Of a stretch of DNA of 37,224 bases, positions 1-28,140 are shown in pieces. The position numbers and the translations under genes are program-made. This stretch comes from Crocosphaera sp. (GTDB lineage: Bacteria; Cyanobacteriota; Cyanobacteriia; Cyanobacteriales; Microcystaceae), in NCBI GenBank assembly GCA_030066295.1, contig JASJBX010000037.1, positions 1 to 37,224 on the forward strand. Direction: 5' to 3'. Below the pieces are notes generated by a model, which worked only from the letters and a program-made list of their open reading frames with translations, did no database searches and was not told where the DNA came from. How positions within the stretch are numbered: position 1 is the stretch's first letter; the number at the start of each line of letters is the position of its first letter.

Positions 1-715
1 TCTCAGATAAATTAATTTTAGGTGTTTCACTATCCAGTCCCAAAGTAGCAAAAACACTCTTTTTTCTTAAATAAGCAATTTCTTTAAGCAATATTCTTTT
101 TAAAACTTCAACACTATGAAGATTATCTAAATCTTGAATTTCTCGAATAGCAAAAATAGAATAATCAATTGATATAATATACTTTCTATCTTTATACTGA
201 ATCAACGTTAAACTATCAGCTTTTAGAAATTCTCCTTTTCCCTTATATTGCTCAATATATTGCTCAATATTATCAATATTCTCTAATTGTTGAAGACTAG
301 ATATGTATACGTCTCTATCTGTTTTTGTTGTATAAGTTCCTAAACTATTATTCCCATGAAAATAACATTGATAATAAAGAATATCCAGCTTTTGATAATG
401 CTTGGGTTTAATCCCAACTGCTTCAAAATATTCTTGTAAAAAATTGAGTCCTGATAAAAAAGCTTTTTGCATAAAAAACAAAACCCAATCTTTAATAATT
501 TTACGATTGGAATCACTAACAACTCTTTCATCTATTACCAATCTATCAATAATCCTACTAAACTTTAATTGTTTTAAATCTTGGGAATATAAGTCATCAT
601 AGTGATGCTTAATATTGTTTTGTTTGATGTAGGTAAGTAGTCCAATATTAAACCCAACTTCAAACAAAAATCCTAACTTTTCTCCAAGTTCAATATCTTT
701 ACCGATATTTGACAT
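1..715 (-). CDS. Unknown protein, C-terminally cut by window edge; partner of the 1035-aa gene
   Basis: I do not recognise this gene. An open frame starts with ATG at 715 and stays open to base 1, giving 238 visible residues with the C-terminus outside the window. The start overlaps the stop of the upstream 1035-residue gene by one base (TAATG), so the two are very likely co-transcribed and translationally coupled. The N-terminal half is rich in charged and aromatic residues with no membrane segment. Around residues 165-190 a strand-like stretch (ADSLTLIQYKDRKYIISIDYS region) recalls the core of PD-(D/E)XK nucleases, but the usual lysine is not evident, so this is only a hint. AT content is high, like the neighbour's. 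The coupling suggests a joint role, possibly in defence, but nothing here proves that. Confidence 0.75.
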   Translation of the reverse strand, partial: MSNIGKDIELGEKLGFLFEVGFNIGLLTYIKQNNIKHHYDDLYSQDLKQLKFSRIIDRLVIDERVVSDSNRKIIKDWVLFFMQKAFLSGLNFLQEYFEAVGIKPKHYQKLDILYYQCYFHGNNSLGTYTTKTDRDVYISSLQQLENIDNIEQYIEQYKGKGEFLKADSLTLIQYKDRKYIISIDYSIFAIREIQDLDNLHSVEVLKRILLKEIAYLRKKSVFATLGLDSETPKINLSE

Positions 716-3700
716 TATTCTTGTTCCTCCGTATCAGGTTTAATGTTCAAGTATCTTCTCACCTCTGTTAGAAAAGCAAGAGAGTTAAATTCAATTTTTT
801 TATCTCCTTTAAGATGATTAAAAATTGATAATTGACCCACTGACTTGTCTCCTATTAAATTTTGGTAAGGATCTAACTTTAAACTAATTGGTCTATTTCT
901 TGTAGCTGTTGCTTGATAACGAGAAAAATGAAATAAAGTAAGATAATTCAATATATCTTTTTTCAATTGAGTATCATGAATTAGTCCTTGATCAATCGTT
1001 TGTTCGTGTTCAGTATCATTATAAATATTTAATAAAGTGGTGTAGGATATAACTCCATTATATGAGTTATCATCTCCCACAGTAATACCATTAAACAAAT
1101 TGAAGAATACTAAGGATCTTTGACTTGCATCTGCTTTATCATTGACTAAGTTTGTTAGTTCAGTAGTATCTTGAATATACAGAGAAGCTGCATTAATTTC
1201 TTGTAGTTTAACAACATAATATTTATCGAAGAAAATAGGATAAATATTGATATCACTCTTACCTAACTTCAATACATTAATAATGTCAGGAGACATAAAA
1301 AAGAGTTCTCTATCTTCTCCTGTAATGTTTAAATAGTTGGAGTAGGGAGATTTAGCAATATACAAAAAATGACGATATCCTGCATTATAAAGTTCAGTAA
1401 CTTTGTTAATCAAAACATCAGGATGTTTGTATATCTCTTCACTATCATAATTACTAGAAAACGTTCCGTGATTATATAATCGAATTGTATTATTTATACT
1501 ATCTTTATTGTTTATATCATCTTTTTGATGATATAAACAGATAACTTCCCCCATCATATTCTTTTTTTGATAAGTGTTGGTATATTTGCGATCGCATTCC
1601 CAACTAGACACAGCGATAATAGCAAGTTTATCCAATTTAGGTGTATAATTATCAAACTTAAATATCTTAGGAAGGATAGAATAGAGAGAACTTAAACCAT
1701 TACGATTTTTCCATTCATTGATATTTTTAACACAAATTCCTTGACAACTAAAATAATGGTCTTGAGAGCGATCATTTTCATTCAATAGATGAGATAATAA
1801 ATAAGAACAAGAACGCATAAAAACTTCTTCTGGTGAAGCGTCATCTTTATTAGTCAAATGAAGGCGTAATAAGGGAATAAATAGCTTTTCTTCTGTTGAA
1901 TCTAGTAATAATTTTAAGCTGAGGTAAGTTAACAAGGAGAAAGTTAACTGATACCAAAACATCTTAGGATCATCTTCCGTCTTAAAAATTTCTTTTTTAA
2001 GACGTTCATGATTATAATTACAAACTAAAGAGGCTTGATTTTTTAATTGTTGTTTATAAATTCTACGACACTGATCTTCTTGAGGGGTTAGAATCATAGG
2101 TATTGTCTTAATTTGTCGTAAATCGTAGTTCATACTAAATCGTTGTTCTTCATTACTCCGAAAGTATTGAATATCATTAAATTTAATGTCAACTGATAAA
2201 CTACACAATGCTTCATTATCAATCTTAGTGTTATCATCTACTGAAATATATTTTAAAGCTTCTTTTTTACCTAACTTATCATTAAAGATTCGATTCAATG
2301 TATCTGGATCTTTTTCTAAAATACCTTGACTAATACTAACTTTGAAAGTGTATGGTTTAGTATCAAATAATTTTGGATCTTCAATACATTTAATTAACAA
2401 ATTTCTTAATTTATTTAACTTGAAATGTATATTAAATTTTTGAAAACCTCTTTTTATGCCATTAAATAGTTTTTCTTTTTTTTCATCATTTTCATCATTT
2501 TCATATTTTAACTTACGTAAAATTTGTTTTTCAAAGTTTTCTACTGGATTATAATTTCCCTCTGATTGAGGATTATAATTATCATCTGAAGGATTACTAC
2601 GAGAAGCAAAAATAAAGTAATATAAAAATACAACTTTCAAAAGTTTCCTTACAAATTTTCCTTTTTCAATTTCATTATCTAACTTATCTTTATTTTCCTT
2701 ATTATTTAAGTCAAGAAAATTAATATGATAGTCAAAAGAACTTTCTCCTTCAGATATGTGGACTTGTCCATTTAATTTTAGTTTCATTCCAAAGACAAAT
2801 TCTTGTTTATCTTTATCTCTATCATTCATCTCTCCTAAATATCCTTCAATTTGTGAAATGATTGGTAAGGAATCAAAAGCATAGGAATTATTAAAAAATT
2901 GACGGAAATTAAAGTCAACACCTTGATAAGAAACTGTATAATGATCATCGGGTTTAGTTTCATCATTAATATAAGTTTCTATTAACTTTAGTCGTCTAAT
3001 TAAATCTTTTAGATAAATTGCATCTTCATCATCTTTAACTTTTTCGTATAAAAATTCCAGATATTTAATACTTGCTGCTTTTTTGATTTTTCCTAGTGCT
3101 TCTTCTTTCATTAATTTGTTTAACTTATAAATATCATTATCTTCTTTCTCTTGATTTTCAAATAAAGGATCAATAATATCCTCTATTAAATCCTCTTTTT
3201 CCTCTTCAAAATTTATTTCAAGATAATTTTCTAAACTATTTCTTAATTCATTTACAAAGCTAGTGGGCTGTTTAACTGTTATACTGAGTTTATGTAATCT
3301 AAGTAATGGGGGAATATTCTGTTCATCTTTAGGTAGGGTTAACCGTTGTTTTTGTAAATTAGTATATTGTTGCTCAAAGGGATAATTAAAAGTGATACTG
3401 TTATTATTAACTTGGCCTTTTAAATTTTCTAAAGGGGTGGCGATACTCTCTAAAAAGGTTTGGATAGATACAGATTGATGGTTTTTCTTCGGTAACGCAT
3501 TTTCTAATAATTGTTTAACCCTTGCTTGAATTTGATGTAATTTATCACTAAATTTTTTTTCTATTCCTTCAACAAAATTAATAGATGCACATTTTGTTCC
3601 AAAAGGTTGACTAATAAAAGGATCATTCATAGATAACTGAGAAACTTTATAAGCAAGTTCATCAACATTCATTAATAACCGTTTGCCATCTTCAGATACC

Positions 3701-3822
3701 TTAAACAGTTTTTGAGAGTTATCCCCATTTAAAACTTCAATAATTTGATCGAGAAAATGATTATAATTTAGTTTAACTAAGTCGTTGCTATCTTCTTTTA
3801 AATTAGATCCAGAATTTGTCAT
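715..3822 (-). CDS. Large unknown protein, 1035 aa, first gene of a two-gene unit
   Basis: This is one uninterrupted frame of 1035 residues, and I cannot assign it to a family with confidence. The protein is hydrophilic, with long charged segments (residues about 200-260 and 440-480) and no signal peptide. A hydrophobic stretch near residue 400 (VVFLYYFIF) is too isolated to call a membrane protein. The last 330 residues look more globular: beta-rich segments, then a C-terminal part with an LTLFHF segment and an NRPISLKLDP segment that loosely recalls the end of PIWI modules. That similarity is by eye and weak. The next gene begins within the stop codon. Low GC and the lack of a housekeeping match suggest an accessory gene. 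Candidate roles include anti-phage defence, unproven. Confidence 0.8.
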   Translation of the reverse strand: MTNSGSNLKEDSNDLVKLNYNHFLDQIIEVLNGDNSQKLFKVSEDGKRLLMNVDELAYKVSQLSMNDPFISQPFGTKCASINFVEGIEKKFSDKLHQIQARVKQLLENALPKKNHQSVSIQTFLESIATPLENLKGQVNNNSITFNYPFEQQYTNLQKQRLTLPKDEQNIPPLLRLHKLSITVKQPTSFVNELRNSLENYLEINFEEEKEDLIEDIIDPLFENQEKEDNDIYKLNKLMKEEALGKIKKAASIKYLEFLYEKVKDDEDAIYLKDLIRRLKLIETYINDETKPDDHYTVSYQGVDFNFRQFFNNSYAFDSLPIISQIEGYLGEMNDRDKDKQEFVFGMKLKLNGQVHISEGESSFDYHINFLDLNNKENKDKLDNEIEKGKFVRKLLKVVFLYYFIFASRSNPSDDNYNPQSEGNYNPVENFEKQILRKLKYENDENDEKKEKLFNGIKRGFQKFNIHFKLNKLRNLLIKCIEDPKLFDTKPYTFKVSISQGILEKDPDTLNRIFNDKLGKKEALKYISVDDNTKIDNEALCSLSVDIKFNDIQYFRSNEEQRFSMNYDLRQIKTIPMILTPQEDQCRRIYKQQLKNQASLVCNYNHERLKKEIFKTEDDPKMFWYQLTFSLLTYLSLKLLLDSTEEKLFIPLLRLHLTNKDDASPEEVFMRSCSYLLSHLLNENDRSQDHYFSCQGICVKNINEWKNRNGLSSLYSILPKIFKFDNYTPKLDKLAIIAVSSWECDRKYTNTYQKKNMMGEVICLYHQKDDINNKDSINNTIRLYNHGTFSSNYDSEEIYKHPDVLINKVTELYNAGYRHFLYIAKSPYSNYLNITGEDRELFFMSPDIINVLKLGKSDINIYPIFFDKYYVVKLQEINAASLYIQDTTELTNLVNDKADASQRSLVFFNLFNGITVGDDNSYNGVISYTTLLNIYNDTEHEQTIDQGLIHDTQLKKDILNYLTLFHFSRYQATATRNRPISLKLDPYQNLIGDKSVGQLSIFNHLKGDKKIEFNSLAFLTEVRRYLNIKPDTEEQE

Positions 3823-7135: not shown

Positions 7136-9859
7136 ATGACCGCAAGCATACCTGAACTACCTACCCAATACGACCCCAAAACCACAGAGGCCAAATGGCA
7201 AGACGCATGGGACACCCATCAAGTCTTCACAGCAGATAATAGCAAGGAAGGGGAAACCTATTGCATTGTCATCCCTCCCCCCAACGTTACTGGAACGCTT
7301 CATATGGGCCATGCGTTTGGAGATTGCCTCATGGATGTATTGGTACGCTATCATCGGATGTGCGGTCATAATACCCTATGTCTCCCCGGAACCGACCATG
7401 CGAGTATTGCAGTTCATACTATCCTCGATAAACAACTCAAAGCAGAGGGTATTACTCGTGATGATATTGGACGGGAAAAATTCTTAGAAAAAGCGTGGCA
7501 ATGGAAGCAAGAATCTGGCGGTAAAATTGTTAATCAGATGAAAAGAATCGGACTGTCTGCGGACTGGTCACGGGAACGGTTTACCCTAGATGAAGGGTTA
7601 TCAAAAGCGGTTAGAACCGCCTTTGTCCAACTATATGAAGCAGGGTTAATTTATCGGGGTAATTATTTAGTTAATTGGTGTCCTGCTTCTTTGTCTGCAG
7701 TGTCAGATGTAGAAGTAGAAAGTAAAGAGGTAGACGGTCATTTATGGCACTTTCGTTATCCCTTAAGCGACGGTAGTGGTCATGTTGAAGTCGCTACCAC
7801 CCGGCCGGAAACCATGTTAGGGGATACAGGAGTTGCGGTCAATCCTAACGATGAAAGATACAAAAATTTGCTCGGAAAAACTATAAAATTACCCATAGTT
7901 GGGCGAGAAATACCGATCTTTGCAGACGACTTAGTTGATCCCGAATTTGGGACTGGGTGTGTTAAAGTTACACCAGCCCATGACCCCAATGATTTCGAGA
8001 TGGGAAACCGTCATCAACTTCCCTTTATTAATATTATGAATAAAGACGGGACACTCAACGAAAATGCAGGAATATTTGAAGGACAAGATCGGTATGTTGC
8101 CCGTAAAAATGTGGTTAAAAAGTTAGAAGAAGAGGGATTTTTAATCAAAATAGAAAACTATAGTCATGCGGTTCCTTACAGCGACAGAGGCAAGGTTCCT
8201 GTTGAACCGTTATTATCCACACAATGGTTTGTCAAAATCGATCCCTTAGCCCAAAAAGCCTTAAAATGTTTAGACGAAAATAATTCTCCCAATTTTGTCC
8301 CTGAACGCTGGAAAAAAGTTTATCGAGATTGGTTAATAAAATTAAAAGATTGGTGTATTTCTCGTCAATTATGGTGGGGACATCAAATTCCGGCTTGGTA
8401 CATTATTAGCGAAACGAACGGAGAAATTACCGATAACACCCCTTTTATTGTGGCGCATTCAGAAGCAGAAGCGTTAGAAAAAGCAAAAAAAGAGTATGGA
8501 AATAACATTAAACTAGAACAAGATTCCGATGTTTTGGATACTTGGTTCTCTTCCGGTTTGTGGCCGTTTTCCACCTTAGGCTGGCCCGAAAATACGGAAG
8601 ATTTAAACACTTATTACCCCACCAGTACCCTGGTAACTGGATTTGATATTATCTTCTTCTGGGTAGCCAGAATGACCATGATGGCTGGCTATTTTACCGA
8701 GCAAATGCCCTTTAAAGATGTCTATATTCACGGCTTAGTTCGGGATGAAAACGGCAAAAAAATGTCAAAGTCCGCTAATAATGGCATCGACCCTTTAATC
8801 TTAATTGAAAAATATGGTACTGATGCACTTCGTTATACCCTGATCAGAGAAGTAGCGGGCGCAGGACAGGATATTAGCCTACAATACGATCGCAAAACCG
8901 ACCAATCCGAGTCCGTCGAAGCCTCTCGAAATTTTGCCAACAAACTGTGGAATGCAGCGCGGTTTGTGATGATGCACCTCAAAGGAGAAACCCCCCAAAC
9001 TTTAGGCACCCCTGATGTAGATAAACTAGAATTGTCGGATAAATGGATACTTTCACGGTTCCATCAAACCGTCCAACAAACGAGGGACTATATCGAAGCC
9101 TATGGCTTAGGAGAAGCAGCTAAAGGGCTGTATGAATTCATCTGGGGAGATTTTTGTGACTGGTATATCGAACTGGTAAAAACCCGTCTCTGGGCTGAAA
9201 CCCCGTCCCGTGACGTTGCCAGACAAACCTTAGCTTATGTGCTGGATGGTACCCTAAAATTACTCCATCCCTTCATGCCCCATATTACCGAAGAAATCTG
9301 GCAAACCCTCAGCCAAAGCAACGGGCAATTTATCGCCCTACAACCCTATCCTAACGTCGATAATAGCCTCATTAAACCCGAATTAGAGGACTCCTTTACC
9401 CTCCTCTTTGAAACCATCCGCACCCTGAGAAATATGCGGGCTGAAGCGGATATTAAACCCGGTGTAAAGGTTTCCGTAATCTTACAGAGTGAAAGTGAGC
9501 AAGAACGATCTATCCTAGAATCAGGACGAAAATACATCCAAGACTTAGGGAAAGTGGAAAATTTAACCATTACACCTCAACTAGAAGAGCAAACGGAACA
9601 AGTCGTGGCTGGAGTCGTCGGAACCATACAAGCCCTAATTCCTCTCTCTGGTGTCGTTGATATTGCTAGTCTTCGCGCCAAATTAGAGAAAAGCTTAGGT
9701 AAAATTGAGGCTGAGATCAAATCCCTCTCAGGCCGACTTAACAACCCAGGTTTTGTCAATAAAGCCCCCGAAGCGGTTGTTCAAGGAGCAAGAGATGCTT
9801 TAGCCGAAGCCGAAAAACAAGCCGAAATTTTACGCGAACGTCTCAAGCGTCTGCAATAA
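7136..9859 (+). CDS. valS: Valyl-tRNA synthetase
   Basis: This class I aminoacyl-tRNA synthetase charges tRNA-Val in the cytoplasm. The HIGH-type motif is HMGH at residues 56-59 in [13 protein letters not shown], and the KMSKS motif lies in [14 protein letters not shown] near residue 545. The editing domain ([15 protein letters not shown]) and a C-terminal coiled-coil tRNA-binding arm ([16 protein letters not shown] onward) are both present. The 907-residue length is usual for bacterial ValRS. The ATG at 7136 ([14 protein letters not shown]) was chosen over a TTG two codons upstream at 7130, because cyanobacterial ValRS proteins typically begin this way. A small unknown gene follows 34 nt downstream on the same strand. 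Confidence 0.97.
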
Positions 9860-9893
9860 TAGAGATACCACCGCGCCCATCCTGTAACCCACT

Positions 9894-10319
9894 ATGCTGC
9901 ACCTAGCCCAAGTGAAAAAGAATCCCGACTCAGGCGAGATGGAACTTCTGTTGCTGGCACGCCAAACCTCCCAAAACCTTTGGGATACCCTATCTGATAA
10001 AATCATCCCCTGTAGCATCCCGATGGGTTTTGGAGATGGGGTTTTGGTGTTAGTAACCTTGGCTGACAATCAAGAAATTATCGAAGTCAAACAAGCCAAA
10101 GATTGGGTGATGGGGTTAGTAGAAATCTATTTAACCAACGGAGTTATTACCCCTGAATGGGTGGAAAAAGAACAAGAAAAAGTAGAACAATGGCGACAGG
10201 AAATTACAGCCAAAAGTCTTGATTTAACCCGTCGCCAACTCGAATTAGAAACCCAAAAAGAACAACTTCAAGAATTAGAGATAAAGTTAAAACAAGAAAA
10301 AGAAGATAATACAAATTAA
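9894..10319 (+). CDS. Conserved hypothetical protein with C-terminal coiled coil
   Basis: The 141-residue protein has a globular N-terminal part (about residues 1-90, starting MLHLAQVKKNPDSGEMELLLLARQ) and a long charged C-terminal helix (about 90-138) rich in E, K and Q with heptad-like spacing, a likely coiled coil. I cannot assign a function. It lies between valS and rsmD on the same strand with short gaps (34 and 43 nt), so it may be co-transcribed with them. No signal peptide or membrane segment is visible. Confidence 0.8.
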   Translation: MLHLAQVKKNPDSGEMELLLLARQTSQNLWDTLSDKIIPCSIPMGFGDGVLVLVTLADNQEIIEVKQAKDWVMGLVEIYLTNGVITPEWVEKEQEKVEQWRQEITAKSLDLTRRQLELETQKEQLQELEIKLKQEKEDNTN

Positions 10320-10362
10320 GGGATAAGTTTAACAGTTAGAGAAGCTAATAGATAACAGTAAA

Positions 10363-10911
10363 ATGAGAATTTATGGCAACCGACTATTAAAAACCTTGCC
10401 AGGAGACTTGACCCGTCCCACATCAGCAAAGGTGAGAGAAGCCTTATTTAATATTTGGCAAGCAGAAGTAAGAGGGTGTTATTGGTTGGATTTATGTGCA
10501 GGAAATGGTTCCATGGGAGCAGAAGCCTTATGTCGTGGGGCTGCCGTGGTTATGGGTATAGAAAAGTATGGAAAAGCCTGTAAAATTATTACTGAAAATT
10601 GGACAAAAATAGCCAACAATGAGCAAGAATTTAAAGTGTTCAAAGGAGATATTTTAAAAGTATTAAAAATCTTAGGAGGGAAAAAATGCGATCGAATTTA
10701 TTTCGATCCCCCTTATCAAAGTTTATTATATCAACCCGTATTAGAATTAATTGTTAATTATCAATTATTAAATGAACAAGGAGAAATAGCCGTAGAACAT
10801 AATCCTCAATTTTGGCAAGCAATAGAGATCAAAGGATTGGAACTTGTGAGAGAAAAACATTATGGTAATACCAGTTTAACGTTTTATCGTTCCGTTCCTT
10901 CCACAAGTTAG
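10363..10911 (+). CDS. rsmD: 16S rRNA (guanine966-N2)-methyltransferase RsmD-like
   Basis: The 182-residue Rossmann-fold methyltransferase opens MRIYGNRLLKTLPG and carries the family-typical RPTSAKVREALFNIW segment (residues 19-32). The S-adenosylmethionine-binding motif is LDLCAGNGSMGAEAL (about 42-56), and the catalytic motif IV is DPPY at 115-118. Length and motif order fit RsmD, which methylates G966 of 16S rRNA during 30S assembly. The gene follows the coiled-coil protein gene and is followed by a 326-nt spacer. A close paralogue acting on another RNA cannot be excluded but is less likely. Confidence 0.9.
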   Translation: MRIYGNRLLKTLPGDLTRPTSAKVREALFNIWQAEVRGCYWLDLCAGNGSMGAEALCRGAAVVMGIEKYGKACKIITENWTKIANNEQEFKVFKGDILKVLKILGGKKCDRIYFDPPYQSLLYQPVLELIVNYQLLNEQGEIAVEHNPQFWQAIEIKGLELVREKHYGNTSLTFYRSVPSTS

Positions 10912-15828: not shown

Positions 15829-16223
15829 TTAAGGATAAGGTAGTAGATTTAGAGAGGAAATAAAACAATAATCTCGCTGATTCTTACTAAGTAAAGCAGT
15901 ATTATAACCTATCGCCGTCGCTGCAATTAAAGCATCAGGAATCATTAAACCATGACTTAAATAATACTTTTGCATTAACTGAATTCCTAAATCAGAAATT
16001 TCTTGATTCAAGGTTAAGCAATGGAATTGACTTAAAAAACGATTTAATTTTTGTAACTCAGACTTATTACGACATCCAACGATTAACTCCATTATTGTAA
16101 TAATAGAAACCGATAAAACGATAAAACGGCTTTTTTTGACTCATCAGCTAAACGGGTAATTGCCGTTAAGTCTCCATTAGCTACATCAATTAAAATATCC
16201 GTATCTATCAAAACATAAACCAT
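15829..16223 (-). pseudogene. vapC: VapC-type PIN-domain toxin, frameshifted
   Basis: The reading frame starts at 16223 (MVYVLIDTDILIDVANGD, with the first PIN acidic residues Asp7 and Asp9), breaks after about 35 codons and stops at 16092. The rest of the PIN domain continues in another frame to 15829 (MELIVGC, then IPDALIAATA with the third acidic residue). Removing one copy of an 8-bp tandem duplication at 16111-16126 joins the two as KAVLS-VSIITIMELIVG, giving a 128-residue protein of normal VapC length. The stop of the first piece overlaps an ATG for the second (TAATG), so the pieces might be made separately, but a split PIN nuclease is unlikely to be active. An intact antitoxin gene lies 1 nt upstream. 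Confidence 0.88.
16111..16126. repeat. 8-bp tandem duplication inside vapC
   Basis: Two adjacent copies of CGATAAAA (16111-16118 and 16119-16126) lie inside the vapC frame. One copy is sufficient for an uninterrupted PIN toxin, so the second copy is the frameshifting lesion. Confidence 0.9.
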
Positions 16224-16224
16224 C

Positions 16225-16461
16225 TTAACCTTGCCATTGTTCTCGTCTTAATTGACGTACCCATTGAGAACTATTTTGCATCTCTTTTCTATCTTTCCAC
16301 ATTCCAACAAAAGGCTGATTTTCCAGAGAAAAAGAAGCAGAAGATAAGACAGTTAATTCTTGTTTTTCTACTTCATTAAGAATTATCTGAGCAATTCTTT
16401 CTTGTTCAGATTCCGGTAATTTCTCAAGTTTGGTCATTACTTTATTAAGAGCTTCAATCAT
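16225..16461 (-). CDS. Antitoxin paired with the broken VapC
   Basis: The 78-residue protein starts MIEALNKVMTKLEKLPESEQERIAQIIL, a helical segment typical of small cyanobacterial antitoxins of unknown fold, and has a basic, tryptophan-containing end that could contact the toxin. The start at 16461 was preferred over an ATG at 16473 because a strong Shine-Dalgarno (GGAGGT) lies just upstream and would fall inside the longer frame. The toxin gene follows after 1 nt. With the toxin frameshifted, the antitoxin is probably an orphan. Confidence 0.75.
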   Translation of the reverse strand: MIEALNKVMTKLEKLPESEQERIAQIILNEVEKQELTVLSSASFSLENQPFVGMWKDRKEMQNSSQWVRQLRREQWQG

Positions 16462-16521
16462 ATTTACCTCCATTTAATTTAACTTCTCAGTTTGTAGTAT
16501 AACAGAAATTAAAAGAATAAT

Positions 16522-16552
16522 ATTGTTGGGTTTCGTTCCTCAACCCAACCTA
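16522..16552. repeat. Palindromic repeat copy B between the two TA operons
   Basis: It carries the same 8-bp stem (GTTGGGTT at 16525-16532, AACCCAAC at 16542-16549) as copies A and C. The 9-nt loop TCGTTCCTC is the exact reverse complement of the loop in copy A. Only the palindromic end of the 100-bp repeat is clearly present here. Confidence 0.85.
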
Positions 16553-16563
16553 CAAGATCAATA

Positions 16564-16959
16564 TTAAACCCAGTTCTCTACTTTGAGATCAGGAATTCTT
16601 TCAAATTCTCGAATATTATTAGTAACTAAGGTATAATTTTGACTTTGACAATGTGCTGCAATTAACATATCCATATTACCAATAGGAGTTCCTTTTGCTT
16701 CTAAATAATTACGAATTTTGCTATAGCATTGTCCTGCTGTTTCTTCCCAAGGTAAAACTTGTAAGCGTGAGATAAAATCATCTAAAATCTCTTGATTCTT
16801 ACTTTTAGCATTAGATTTATCTACACCATATTGTAATTCAGCTACCGTCATCACAGAAAGATATAAATCTTCAGAAGCAATCGTTTGAAAACGAGTTAAT
16901 ACCGTGGATGGACGCTTTTTAATGATATAAATACAAATGTTAGTATCTAACATATACAT
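16564..16959 (-). CDS. vapC: VapC-type PIN-domain ribonuclease toxin
   Basis: The 131-residue PIN-domain protein has the Mg-binding acidic residues in place: Asp5 (MLDTNICIYIIK), Glu41 (AELQYG) and Asp97 (NMDMLIAAH). Family members cleave tRNA or rRNA and stop translation when not bound by VapB. Length and motif order are those of intact VapC (MYMLDTNICIYIIKKRP start). The gene begins right after the VapB stop codon, so the two are one operon. No lesion is seen, unlike the neighbouring vapC at 15829-16223. Confidence 0.93.
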   Translation of the reverse strand: MYMLDTNICIYIIKKRPSTVLTRFQTIASEDLYLSVMTVAELQYGVDKSNAKSKNQEILDDFISRLQVLPWEETAGQCYSKIRNYLEAKGTPIGNMDMLIAAHCQSQNYTLVTNNIREFERIPDLKVENWV

Positions 16960-17196
16960 TTAGAATAGTTCCTCTCTAGTTTGAGGAAGTAAATCGATTC
17001 TTTGTTCCATAAAATCTTCTGAGGGTAAAGGGGTTTTCTCAAAAAAGTCTTCCCAGGTAGTCGGTTTAGGAGATAAGATAACTTTATTTCCAACTCTATG
17101 AATATAAACTTCTTTACCTTCAAATCGAAATTCTTGAGGCAACCGTACAGCTTGACTACGACCGTTCATAAATAGTTTAGCGGTTTTTCGTTTCAT
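16960..17196 (-). CDS. vapB: VapB-type antitoxin
   Basis: The 78-residue protein has an N-terminal AbrB/MazE-like swapped-hairpin DNA-binding part ([20 protein letters not shown], then [15 protein letters not shown]). A C-terminal tail ([15 protein letters not shown]) would insert into the toxin. It directly precedes vapC and is expected to bind its own promoter, so the complex represses the operon. Repeat copy C lies 46 nt upstream of the start, close to where the promoter should be. Confidence 0.93.
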
Positions 17197-17432: not shown

Positions 17433-19157
17433 ATGGATAGAATAACAGAAAATTTAGTAAATAATTTTGTTGAGCAACATGAACTTGAACAACTTGAAGA
17501 GTCAAAACAATTTGAATATTTCGTCAATTATGTAACAGGTTCAAAACTTCATAGAGGTAGTTTTGAGATTGACTCGTTATGTACAGGAAATAGTGGTGAT
17601 GCAGGAATAGATGGACTTGCTATTGTGATTAATGGTAGGCTAATTACTGACGTTCAAGAGCTTGATGATATAGTTTCTGAAAATGGTTATCTTGACTGTA
17701 ATATTACTTTCATACAATCAAAAACATCTAGAAAATTTGAGGGTTCAGAAATAGGCACTTTTATTTTTGGAGTTAAAGATTTTCTGGATGACAAACCTAA
17801 ACTGGTTCATAATGAAAAGATCAAAAGGCTTAAAGAAATTTGGGAAACTGTCATTAAAAATTCTTCTTATATGCTAAATCGTAGACCAAATTGTAAGCTT
17901 CTTTATGTTACTACGGGTAAGTGGTTTAATGATCAAAATCTAAAAGCTGTAATTTCGTCGGGTGTTCAGGAAATAGAAGATAGTGGACTATTCAATCAGG
18001 TTGAATTCGAGCCTTATGGAGCAACAGAGTTACAAAAATTATATAATGAAACTCGTAACAAATTATCGAGTACAATTAAATTTGAAAATAAAATTACTTT
18101 ACCAGATATCGAAGGAGTAAAAGAAGCTTATTTAGGACTTGTTCCCTTTAAAGAATTCATTAAATTAATTGAAGATGATAATGAGTCAATATATAATATA
18201 TTTTATGATAATGTAAGAGATTTTTTAGGAGAAAATGAAATTAACAGTAAAATAAAACAAACTTTAAATGAAAAAAAATTTGATTTATTTTGTTTGCTTA
18301 ATAACGGTGTTACACTTGTTTCAACATCTCTTACTCCTGCTGGAAACGCATTTACTTTAAGGGATTATCAAGTAGTAAATGGATGTCAGACTAGCCATGT
18401 CTTACATCAGTGTAAGAAACAAAAAGGTATTGAAAATGTTAATGTACCTATTAAAGTTATTGTTACTGAAGATGAAGATATCAAAAATCAAATTACTCTT
18501 GCAACCAATAGTCAAACAGAAGTCAAACCAGAACAATTAGCTTCTTTAACGACTTTTCAGAAAAATCTTGAACTATATTATGAAGCAATGAAAGATCAAA
18601 TAGAACTTTACTATGAAAGGCGATCACGACAGTATCACGCAAATTCAGGCGTAAAAAAAACACAAGTTATTTCAATTGCGATTCAAATTAAGTCATTTGC
18701 TTCTGCTTTCCTTAATAGTCCTCATTTAGTATCAGGTTATTATGGAACAATTGCTAAAAGATTCAAAGATAAAATTTTTAATAATGATCATAAATATGCC
18801 CCTTATTATGGAAGTGCCTTGTGTTTCTATCGACTAGAAAGTTTATTTCGCAATAAAACAATAGATACAAAGTATAAAAAACTTCGCTATCACATGATTA
18901 TGTTAGCTCGAATATTATCGATGAATTCAGTGACGGTTGATTACCTAAATAGCTCTAAAATTGAAAAAAAATCAGAAGATTTTATCAAAAAGCTGAAAGA
19001 CGAAGAAAAATATTTGAAGTTATTTGAGTTAGTAATATCTGTGATTGAAAAATCACCACTTGATTTATCTAAAAATCAATTTAAAGCAGAATCTGAAACG
19101 AAATCTTTAATTGATACATTAAATTCACTAAATTTACTGAGTAAAACTAATCAATAA
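17433..19157 (+). CDS. AIPR-family protein with restriction-endonuclease-like N-terminus (candidate phage defence)
   Basis: The 574-residue protein carries the AIPR (abortive infection phage resistance) core: CLLNNGVTLVS near residue 290 and DYQVVNGCQTSHVLH at 311-325. The N-terminal 150 residues look like a PD-(D/E)XK nuclease: GDAGIDGLAI with Asp60, then ITFIQSKTS with Gln95 and Lys97, matching the D...QxK pattern of Mrr-like enzymes. It probably recognises phage infection and cleaves nucleic acid, but neither trigger nor target can be read. It stands alone on the plus strand beside the toxin-antitoxin islet. Codon use is AT-rich. A 9-codon upstream frame (17411-17440) overlaps the start and might affect translation. 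AIPR assignment is firm; nuclease activity is inferred. Confidence 0.85.
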   Translation: MDRITENLVNNFVEQHELEQLEESKQFEYFVNYVTGSKLHRGSFEIDSLCTGNSGDAGIDGLAIVINGRLITDVQELDDIVSENGYLDCNITFIQSKTSRKFEGSEIGTFIFGVKDFLDDKPKLVHNEKIKRLKEIWETVIKNSSYMLNRRPNCKLLYVTTGKWFNDQNLKAVISSGVQEIEDSGLFNQVEFEPYGATELQKLYNETRNKLSSTIKFENKITLPDIEGVKEAYLGLVPFKEFIKLIEDDNESIYNIFYDNVRDFLGENEINSKIKQTLNEKKFDLFCLLNNGVTLVSTSLTPAGNAFTLRDYQVVNGCQTSHVLHQCKKQKGIENVNVPIKVIVTEDEDIKNQITLATNSQTEVKPEQLASLTTFQKNLELYYEAMKDQIELYYERRSRQYHANSGVKKTQVISIAIQIKSFASAFLNSPHLVSGYYGTIAKRFKDKIFNNDHKYAPYYGSALCFYRLESLFRNKTIDTKYKKLRYHMIMLARILSMNSVTVDYLNSSKIEKKSEDFIKKLKDEEKYLKLFELVISVIEKSPLDLSKNQFKAESETKSLIDTLNSLNLLSKTNQ

Positions 19158-27455: not shown

Positions 27456-27560
27456 GGTTTGGGAAGGATGAGGAGTGTGGGAAGGATGGGGAGTGTGGGA
27501 AAAGAGACAATTTAAACTTTTGCCTTTTGCCTTTTGCCTTCCCGAAGGGTTGCCTTCTAT
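27456..27560. repeat. Heptamer-type repeats between hesA and nifW
   Basis: A G-rich part (GAGTGTGGGAAGGATGGGG style, 27456-27500) is followed by three CTTTTGC units at 27517-27537. The block ends at the stop codon of nifW. Confidence 0.85.
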
Positions 27561-27907
27561 TGCATAATACCGGCTTCTTTGGTTAAATCATCCAATAAAA
27601 CCACGTTACCAGGAACATCTTTGAAGACTTTAAAGAGTTTGGTTTCGAGAGGGCTGGAGGTTTTAAAGAGTTCGTAAGCTTCCGAAAAAGCGAGTTTATA
27701 TTTTTCTAATTTTTCACTTTCACTAAGATCGGGGAAGGCTTGATCGACTTGGGCAATAAGTAAAGAGAACTGCTTAAGAATATGAAGACGGTTAACGTTA
27801 ACAAAAGTAGGGTCATAACTGATTCCAAAAAAGGTTAAATAGTCTTCCGTGTCGATAAGTTTGGTGAACTCCGCTAAGGTTCTTGGGGTATCAGCAGTAA
27901 TAGTCAT
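27557..27907 (-). CDS. nifW: NifW, nitrogenase-stabilising protein
   Basis: The 116-residue protein matches NifW: TLAEFTKLIDTEDYLTFFGISYDPTFVNVNRLHILKQF and FKTSSPLETKLFKVF are the family's conserved parts. NifW associates with the MoFe protein and helps its maturation or oxygen protection. The ATG overlaps the stop of the DUF683 gene (ATGA), so the two are coupled. Length is typical. Confidence 0.95.
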   Translation of the reverse strand: MTITADTPRTLAEFTKLIDTEDYLTFFGISYDPTFVNVNRLHILKQFSLLIAQVDQAFPDLSESEKLEKYKLAFSEAYELFKTSSPLETKLFKVFKDVPGNVVLLDDLTKEAGIMQ

Positions 27908-28140
27908 TTTAGGGTTTCCTCCCAGATGTTAAGTTTTTTCTTGAGTTGATCTAATTCACGAAATACTTCGTAAGTTTTTTGTGCCTCTTCGACCAATTTT
28001 TCGTAGTCGGTAGGCAGTCCTTCGGCAAGATCATGGAGATCCATCTTCATTTGACCGGCTTTAGAATTGAGTTTACGAACCTTTTTTTTAAGATCCGCAA
28101 CTGCTTCTGGAGTGGGATTATTTTCGGTAGCTACTGTCAT
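27904..28140 (-). CDS. DUF683 (CCE_0567-type) small nif protein
   Basis: The 78-residue all-helical protein (ADLKKKVRKLNSKAGQMKMDLHDLAEGLP, then EEAQKTYEVFRELDQLKKKL) fits the DUF683 family found between the DUF269 gene and nifW in many nif clusters. Members are small helical proteins proposed to bind iron or assist cofactor assembly. The DUF683 call rests on position and pattern. Translation is coupled to nifW through an ATGA overlap. Confidence 0.88.
   Translation of the reverse strand: MTVATENNPTPEAVADLKKKVRKLNSKAGQMKMDLHDLAEGLPTDYEKLVEEAQKTYEVFRELDQLKKKLNIWEETLK

Follow-up and report, generated by a model that had tools for sequence, protein, structure and literature searches.

A conserved cyanobacterial gene pair for a predicted Argonaute-like protein and an SF2 helicase, a candidate genome-defence system

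Introduction

What do two overlapping genes of no recognised family do at the end of a Crocosphaera contig? The stretch analysed here, referred to as the window, is contig JASJBX010000037.1 (C130; 37,224 nucleotides, complete from end to end) of a Crocosphaera sp. of the order Cyanobacteriales, from an assembly of 4.4 Mb in 263 contigs (GCA_030066295.1). Its first lines hold the gene for a 1035-aa protein, referred to as P1, and the beginning of the gene for a second protein, P2, which continues past the contig edge. An earlier note made from the sequence alone had seen in them a large unknown protein with a small coupled partner, possibly a defence system. We find that P1 is very probably an Argonaute-like protein, as judged from its predicted structure, that P2 is a helicase larger than P1, and that the two belong together.

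Results

A conserved two-gene unit

715..3822, reverse strand: P1, predicted cryptic Argonaute-superfamily protein of 1035 aa (open reading frame, model, PDB matches and homologues)
2..715, reverse strand: P2 stump, the first 238 aa of a predicted SF2 helicase of ~1,200-1,320 aa (open reading frame, contig end and relatives)
714..718, reverse strand: P1/P2 stop/start junction TAATG with a one-base overlap at 715 (sequence; similar overlaps in relatives)

Much of the earlier description stands. The two reading frames overlap by a single base, 715, at a TAATG junction, the region is AT-rich (G+C content of 25-29% across the first 4 kb vs 28-48% in the remaining 1-kb windows), and neither product has a recognisable family: Pfam (up to E 1), PADLOC and NCBIfam gave no match to P1 or the P2 stump, PHROG matches of either were weak (best E 0.021), and neither protein matches a housekeeping family. 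The small partner had to be given up. Since the window is a whole contig whose edge cuts the P2 gene, and since intact relatives of P2 reach ~1,200-1,320 aa, the 238 residues are a stump of a protein larger than P1, and a layout of large protein plus small partner is ruled out. Contig C72 of the same assembly (7290-10421) encodes P2 residues 183-1226 with no stop, open to the contig end, and its end matches the start of the window over 168/173 nt; it is therefore a near copy or strain variant, whose identity with the window's own P2 gene is unproven.

Homologues of the two proteins stay paired, the behaviour that the earlier note had proposed as a test of the unit. Among 78 P1 loci, drawn from the best 80 of 113 confirmed stretches, P2 is present in 65; it follows P1 on the same strand in 64 and comes first in one (L067). 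Eight of the 13 loci without P2 end <500 bp from P1. The 65 P1-P2 junctions in these 64 loci comprise 29 overlaps, 12 spacings of 0-50 nt, 13 of 51-300 nt and 11 of >300 nt, with an overlap of -1 in 8 and of -4 in 20. Because overlaps of -1 and -4 recur in relatives, the TAATG junction of the window is more than chance. In five loci (L049, L097, L101, L104 and L109) P1 is separated from P2 by further genes, which often have the opposite orientation.

The pairing holds at the level of genomes. Of 388 genomes from the order, 164 carry P1 and 178 carry P2; 157 have both, 7 have P1 only, 21 have P2 only and 203 have neither (Fisher p 1e-74, which is descriptive because the genomes are related). 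Pairwise distances within P1 and within P2 are correlated (r = 0.93, 54 pairs; ≤0.17 in 1,000 shuffles), a result that linkage alone would also give. P1-P2 is an unrecognised, conserved and probably translationally coupled two-gene unit, and we are confident that the two proteins form a functional pair.

P1 has a predicted Argonaute fold with a probably dead nuclease site

2158..3822, reverse strand: P1 N-terminal half, residues 1-555, predicted mixed helix/strand, part of which aligns with the Argonaute N-terminal/linker region
1648..2112, reverse strand: predicted P1 MID-like domain, ~residues 571-725 (model, short-Argonaute alignment from ~551, conserved columns)
922..1629, reverse strand: predicted P1 PIWI/RNase H-like domain, ~residues 732-967 (model, PDB matches, column counts)

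A search of PDB sequences with P1 found no relative. The alignment of 78 P1 sequences was then used for an AlphaFold2 model of the window's P1 (mean predicted local distance difference test score, pLDDT, 84.2; predicted template modelling score 0.83). Foldseek comparison of this model with the PDB placed Argonautes at all of ranks 1-23, bacterial, archaeal and eukaryotic, long as well as short, with E values from 9.0e-6 (best, probability 1.00) to 1.1e-2; the next entry was unrelated (E 0.059). VIA-align placed the A. aeolicus Argonaute at the top (Z 11.1, root-mean-square deviation 4.3 Å, 326 residues aligned) and aligned the SPARTA short Argonaute (8qlo) over 350 residues (Z 8.4, P1 model residues 551-1023). 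Z values of 7-8 are common by chance with this method, and we judge a value of 11.1 that tops a list made up of Argonautes to be beyond chance; 48 of the 50 rows were titled Argonaute/PIWI proteins or systems, the other two (8xih and 4kpy) protein-DNA complexes. The predicted model has MID followed by PIWI (RNase H-like), in the Argonaute order. Alignments to long Argonautes start at ~residue 158, the N-terminal half being barely assigned and no PAZ domain being assigned. On the strength of the model, P1 very probably has an Argonaute fold.

Conservation concentrates in the same half of the protein, with 31 of the 47 columns invariant among the 78 sequences lying within residues 571-1035. In the MID region R653, E666, G695, N708, Y714, S715 and P718 are invariant in 78/78 sequences, Q694 is kept in 77/78 and K719 in 76/78. 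Set by eye against the motif of the guide 5'-end pocket (Y/R/H, K, Q, K), P1 keeps Q694 and K719, and the Y..K pair is missing. Catalytic positions were read by eye from the order of the strands rather than taken from a residue-level structural alignment. The predicted first catalytic Asp, position 739, is Ser in 77/78 sequences and Ala in 1/78, and the predicted second position, 824 in strand 818-824, is Lys in 40/78 and Gln in 38/78, so that the DEDX catalytic tetrad is absent at the two assigned positions. Because Ser and Lys/Gln replace the predicted catalytic aspartates, we regard P1 as probably a nuclease-dead sensor, and one that would bind a guide.

P2 is a helicase with a nuclease-like N-terminal region

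56..493, reverse strand: putative P2 N-terminal PD-(D/E)XK-like region, D167 and D184-Y-S186 (D162 and D179-x-S/T181 in the Calothrix relative L070; helix/strand order, conserved columns)

A gene of one and the same P2 family follows P1 in 20 related loci, encoding ~1,200-1,320 aa where complete, and the same is seen in the P1 locus set. Full-length relatives match Helicase_C (best 3.9e-9, in one relative) and AAA models. The structure was predicted for the Calothrix relative L070, not for the window's stump (pLDDT 82.7), and its best structural matches were SF2 helicases (DEAH, RecQ, RIG-I-like and Ski2; Z up to 15.3, for Prp2), most helicase rows covering residues ~330-1075. The helicase core, with two RecA-like lobes, lies at ~380-950 of this model and is preceded by some 380 residues, no domain being assigned to the 250 at the C-terminus. 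A Walker A motif GNPGIGKT, DEITG and Q...R.R (motif VI) are each present in 51/51 sequences. With its motifs intact by sequence and model, P2 is almost certainly an active SF2 ATPase.

The helix-strand order and Asp spacing of the N-terminal region fit the alpha-beta-beta-beta-alpha-beta core of PD-(D/E)XK enzymes, with Ser/Thr in place of Lys. In L070 numbering D162 and D179 are each found in 51/51 sequences, residue 181 is Ser in 48/51 and Thr in 3/51, and residue 179 is Glu in proteobacterial relatives. Given Ser for Lys within a PD-(D/E)XK-like order, this module may be a nuclease in degenerate or variant form.

The pair is patchily distributed and occurs on conjugative plasmids

P1 is found in 64/149 genera of the order, a patchy distribution, and broken copies (stops or fragments) exist. 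All 78 P1 loci are titled cyanobacterial; the contig scan relied on peptide patterns typical of cyanobacteria, so this result says little on other phyla. The window's P1 clusters with Crocosphaera in the P1 tree. Viral contigs and phage records held no P1 relative. P1 occurs on 6 plasmids, all cyanobacterial and all typed conjugative, with P2 on the same 6, and the pair was intact in 3/3 plasmids opened (Tolypothrix PCC 7712, Trichormus variabilis ATCC 29413 plasmid C and Nostoc pNPM2). A DISARM drmD gene lies ~9 kb from the pair on Nostoc pNPM2. A Stanieria plasmid carries a P2 fragment and no P1.

Relatives of P2 with 23-26% identity lie on plasmids of Cupriavidus, Acinetobacter (2) and Acetobacter, where P2 is split into two open reading frames on the Acetobacter plasmid. 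Just upstream of the P2 relative, all four proteobacterial plasmids carry a gene of ~1,100-1,200 aa (annotated in Acinetobacter and Acetobacter, from open reading frames in Cupriavidus). The P1 profile searched against open reading frames of six loci matched those of Cupriavidus (2.3e-8) and A. piscicola (8.1e-5), the values for PK01 (0.13) and Acetobacter (4.8) not being significant; tblastn with the Cupriavidus P1 found Acetobacter (4e-42) and both Acinetobacter (2e-35 and 2e-33). Very diverged P1-P2 pairs, in the same order, sit on all four plasmids. In Pfam and PADLOC the proteobacterial P1s and P2s matched neither a known P1 model nor one of Ddm type. At one Acinetobacter locus (L210, 13504-15510) an HNH-endonuclease gene and a WYL-domain gene lie downstream of the pair; in Vibrio, according to the portion of the source available, a WYL gene precedes ddmDE (PMC12409362).

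The P1 tree falls into two groups by residue 824, one with Lys and the other with Gln (2 changes vs 26 in shuffles). All 4 loci of the alignment that hold two P1 genes (L074, L076, L081 and L084) have one Lys and one Gln P1 flanking one P2, and at L081 a second P2 start stands at the contig end.

Known Argonaute-helicase systems differ in order and layout

The published account of DdmDE, as far as it was available, describes an inactive, DNA-guided long prokaryotic Argonaute (pAgo) that brings a helicase-nuclease to plasmids (PMC12409362). P1-P2 similarly joins an apparently inactive long Argonaute-like protein to an SF2 helicase in one operon. On the same partial account, DdmD has its helicase N-terminal and its PD-(D/E)XK nuclease C-terminal, whereas P2 has any nuclease-like module N-terminal and the core at ~380-950; unlike in DdmDE, the Argonaute gene comes first in P1-P2. 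No Ddm-named PADLOC match to P1 or P2 was found up to E 1 or 10, the presence of Ddm models in that library being unconfirmed, and neither DdmE nor DdmD is named among the 50 VIA-align rows listed for each of the P1 and P2 models, an absence that proves nothing.

The antiplasmid system ApsAB of E. coli combines an Argonaute-like protein with a helicase-nuclease, and similar systems are reported in cyanobacteria too, in those parts of the source that were at hand (PMC11096173). It resembles P1-P2 in joining an Argonaute-like protein to an SF2 helicase and in the MID 'QG...K' elements (Q694-G695...K719 in P1). In the same parts ApsB is described without the PIWI RNase H fold that the model gives P1, and ApsA has a C-terminal nuclease and the first gene, whereas in P1-P2 the Argonaute-like gene is first. 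Of the ApsAB MID motif Y[X]3K[X]nQG[X]nK, cyanobacterial P1s have QG and K without Y[X]3K; the Acetobacter P1 relative reads Y-A-V-F-K there. Cyanobacterial ApsAB members may overlap with P1-P2, the two being compared by description. We think it likely that P1-P2 forms a family separate from those of ApsAB and DdmDE, a judgement drawn from the descriptions of the two systems.

Conventional long pAgos (PF02171) share the MID-PIWI order with P1. In the genome of the window PF02171 picks out a pAgo at C48 and not P1, and P1 has ~1,035 aa vs 700-791 for 16 pAgos compared. Long-B pAgos, in the part of the review consulted, are inactive, are without DEDX and can adjoin helicase or nuclease genes (PMC6299218). 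The pPIWI-RE systems likewise combine a diverged PIWI protein with a helicase; by the sections of the source available, they consist of three genes, for a restriction endonuclease (REase), DinG and, last, pPIWI-RE, in contrast to two genes with the Argonaute-like one first and no third REase gene in P1-P2 (PMC3702460). The genome of the window has two pPIWI-RE genes (C114 and C68) and one pAgo (C48), up to three kinds of PIWI protein. No paper on the P1-P2 pair was found in the open-licence literature, taken without supplements.

Discussion

A candidate guide-directed defence pair

What might such a pair do? We lean slightly towards a two-protein genome-defence system that works like DdmDE or ApsAB, membership in either not being claimed. 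The MID-PIWI half of P1 would hold a short guide, with its PIWI site dead, and P1 would meet a complementary target, most likely a plasmid or other invading DNA. Target-bound P1 might then recruit or activate P2, which would load on the opened DNA, translocate, and destroy or evict the invader; destruction could proceed via the divergent PD-(D/E)XK-like N-terminal module of P2 or via host nucleases. The defence role put forward in the earlier note is plausible on other grounds than its own: guilt by association is weak, and what inclines us, by a little, to guide-directed defence against plasmids or other invaders is the Argonaute fold together with the helicase and the occurrence on plasmids. 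With gene order and domain layout differing from DdmDE and ApsAB, the pair is best read as a third kind of "inactive Argonaute + helicase" defence.

A more far-reaching proposal is held only tentatively. P1 would be an unrecognised family of nuclease-dead Argonautes, invisible to profiles. With its own SF2 helicase it would make up an independent immune system of the Argonaute-helicase type, the third of its kind, which would rank with the most common in cyanobacteria and ride conjugative plasmids. Loci of the Microcoleaceae type would have one helicase flanked and shared by two Argonautes from different clades, as two sensors and one motor.

Many cyanobacteria are hard to transform. If the defence reading is true, this common but overlooked pairing of an Argonaute with a helicase would offer a candidate barrier to transformation in these bacteria, one open to testing by deletion; the Argonaute universe would also be larger than sequence surveys report, and the pairing of a dead Argonaute with a helicase would have arisen or been remodelled several times.

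Several observations weigh against this reading. Five of the 78 loci are without P2 though they offer 3.3-10 kb of room, and there are the 21 genomes with P2 and without P1. The Y..K pair of the MID motif is missing from cyanobacterial P1s. A fully dead site is put in question by D744, which all 78 P1s have and which the four proteobacterial P1s keep in the alignment, and by E759, which all 78 have but those four have lost. The putative nuclease module of P2, with Ser/Thr at the expected Lys, may be inactive or no nuclease. The TM-scores of the 23 Argonautes to P1 are low (0.21-0.38 by target, Foldseek), which the multi-domain nature of P1, as modelled, would explain in part only. Of the analyses proposed earlier, structure prediction pointed to an Argonaute fold for P1 and, for a P2 relative, to an SF2 helicase, and profile comparison with hhalign gave no link between P1 and pAgos or pPIWI-RE (probability ≤2%). 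Adding five divergent P1 sequences to the profile did not improve the outcome. Among the controls weak and strong pPIWI-RE recognised each other (99.9%), and the positive pair of pPIWI-RE and pAgo was missed too (2.9%), so that the negative for P1 is uninformative; profile-profile comparison was abandoned as a test of its Argonaute kinship. Finally, some Nostocaceae loci look like stable chromosomal synteny, and the neighbourhoods of the pair are not clearly defence-rich. Among 245 neighbouring genes, of which 121 cluster representatives were scanned (raw counts without a random-region control), the commonest PADLOC family had 4 matches, and Pfam matched Uma2 (5), TPR and many metabolic or housekeeping genes; this gives no general support for a defence island.

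Alternative explanations

P1-P2 could instead be a diverged branch of pPIWI-RE/DinG-type RNA-dependent restriction, with P1 as the sensor of DNA-RNA hybrids (R-loops) and the helicase as the enzyme that resolves these, the pair acting on transcribed foreign DNA. The ingredients are the same, a PIWI fold and an SF2 helicase, and E759 (78/78) and R741 (57/78) of P1 recall the R and E of the pPIWI-RE PIWI sheet as given in the part of the source seen (PMC3702460), the positional equivalence being uncertain. Yet the conservation of R741 is incomplete and the proteobacterial relatives have lost E759, PF13032 (RNaseH_pPIWI_RE) finds two genes in the same genome (C114 and C68) and not P1, the third REase gene is missing and the gene order is different, and P2 compares unconvincingly with the DinG of the triad (hhalign probability 3.7-8.4%). 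We consider this branch unlikely. Membership of P1 in pPIWI-RE itself was rejected, there being no PF13032 match, another gene order and no hhalign similarity.

Equally improbable, in our estimate, is a cellular pair for genome maintenance or gene regulation (replication, decatenation or R-loop clearance) with no part in defence. P1 is common enough for such a role (164/388 genomes of the order), its synteny is stable in some Nostocaceae, many of its neighbours are housekeeping genes, and pAgos can aid chromosome decatenation, according to the part of that study drawn on here (PMC10269773). The pair is nevertheless missing from most of the order's genomes, has a patchy distribution among genera, exists in broken copies, and travels on plasmids, both conjugative ones and those of distant proteobacteria.

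It is more doubtful still that P1 is an active nuclease with a rearranged RNase H-fold site using D744 (and E759 in cyanobacteria), P2 being the unwinding motor. Both residues are invariant (78/78) and lie on neighbouring PIWI strands of the model, 732-746 and 752-765, and D744 is also kept in the four aligned proteobacterial P1s; E759 is not kept there, and the second catalytic position, in strand 818-824, is never acidic.

Least probable of all is a convergent RNase H/Rossmann-like arrangement in which P1 binds no guide and serves as scaffold to P2 as the functional core: profile-level similarity is nil and TM-scores are low, but the match covers MID and PIWI in order, 48/50 VIA-align rows are titled Argonaute/PIWI, and a viral structure library returned nothing at E ≤ 0.001 for the P1 model, so the query is not promiscuous.

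Neighbouring genes

15829-17196 and 17433-19157: PIN and MazE-like genes, a second PIN fragment and AIPR (PF10592, 3e-46)
27557-28140: NifW and a Rop-like gene

The earlier note had placed the pair near toxin-antitoxin debris and an AIPR gene. These genes exist, but they lie 12-15 kb off, beyond the valyl-tRNA synthetase and symporter; on its upstream side P1 is followed in the window by a sodium:solute symporter, a DUF29 gene and the valyl-tRNA synthetase. Loci L041, L042 and L045 have a common five-gene block upstream of P1, with small variations in L042, and this shared block suggests that the pair has long been vertically resident on the chromosome there. The contig of the window also bears nitrogen-fixation genes (NifW).

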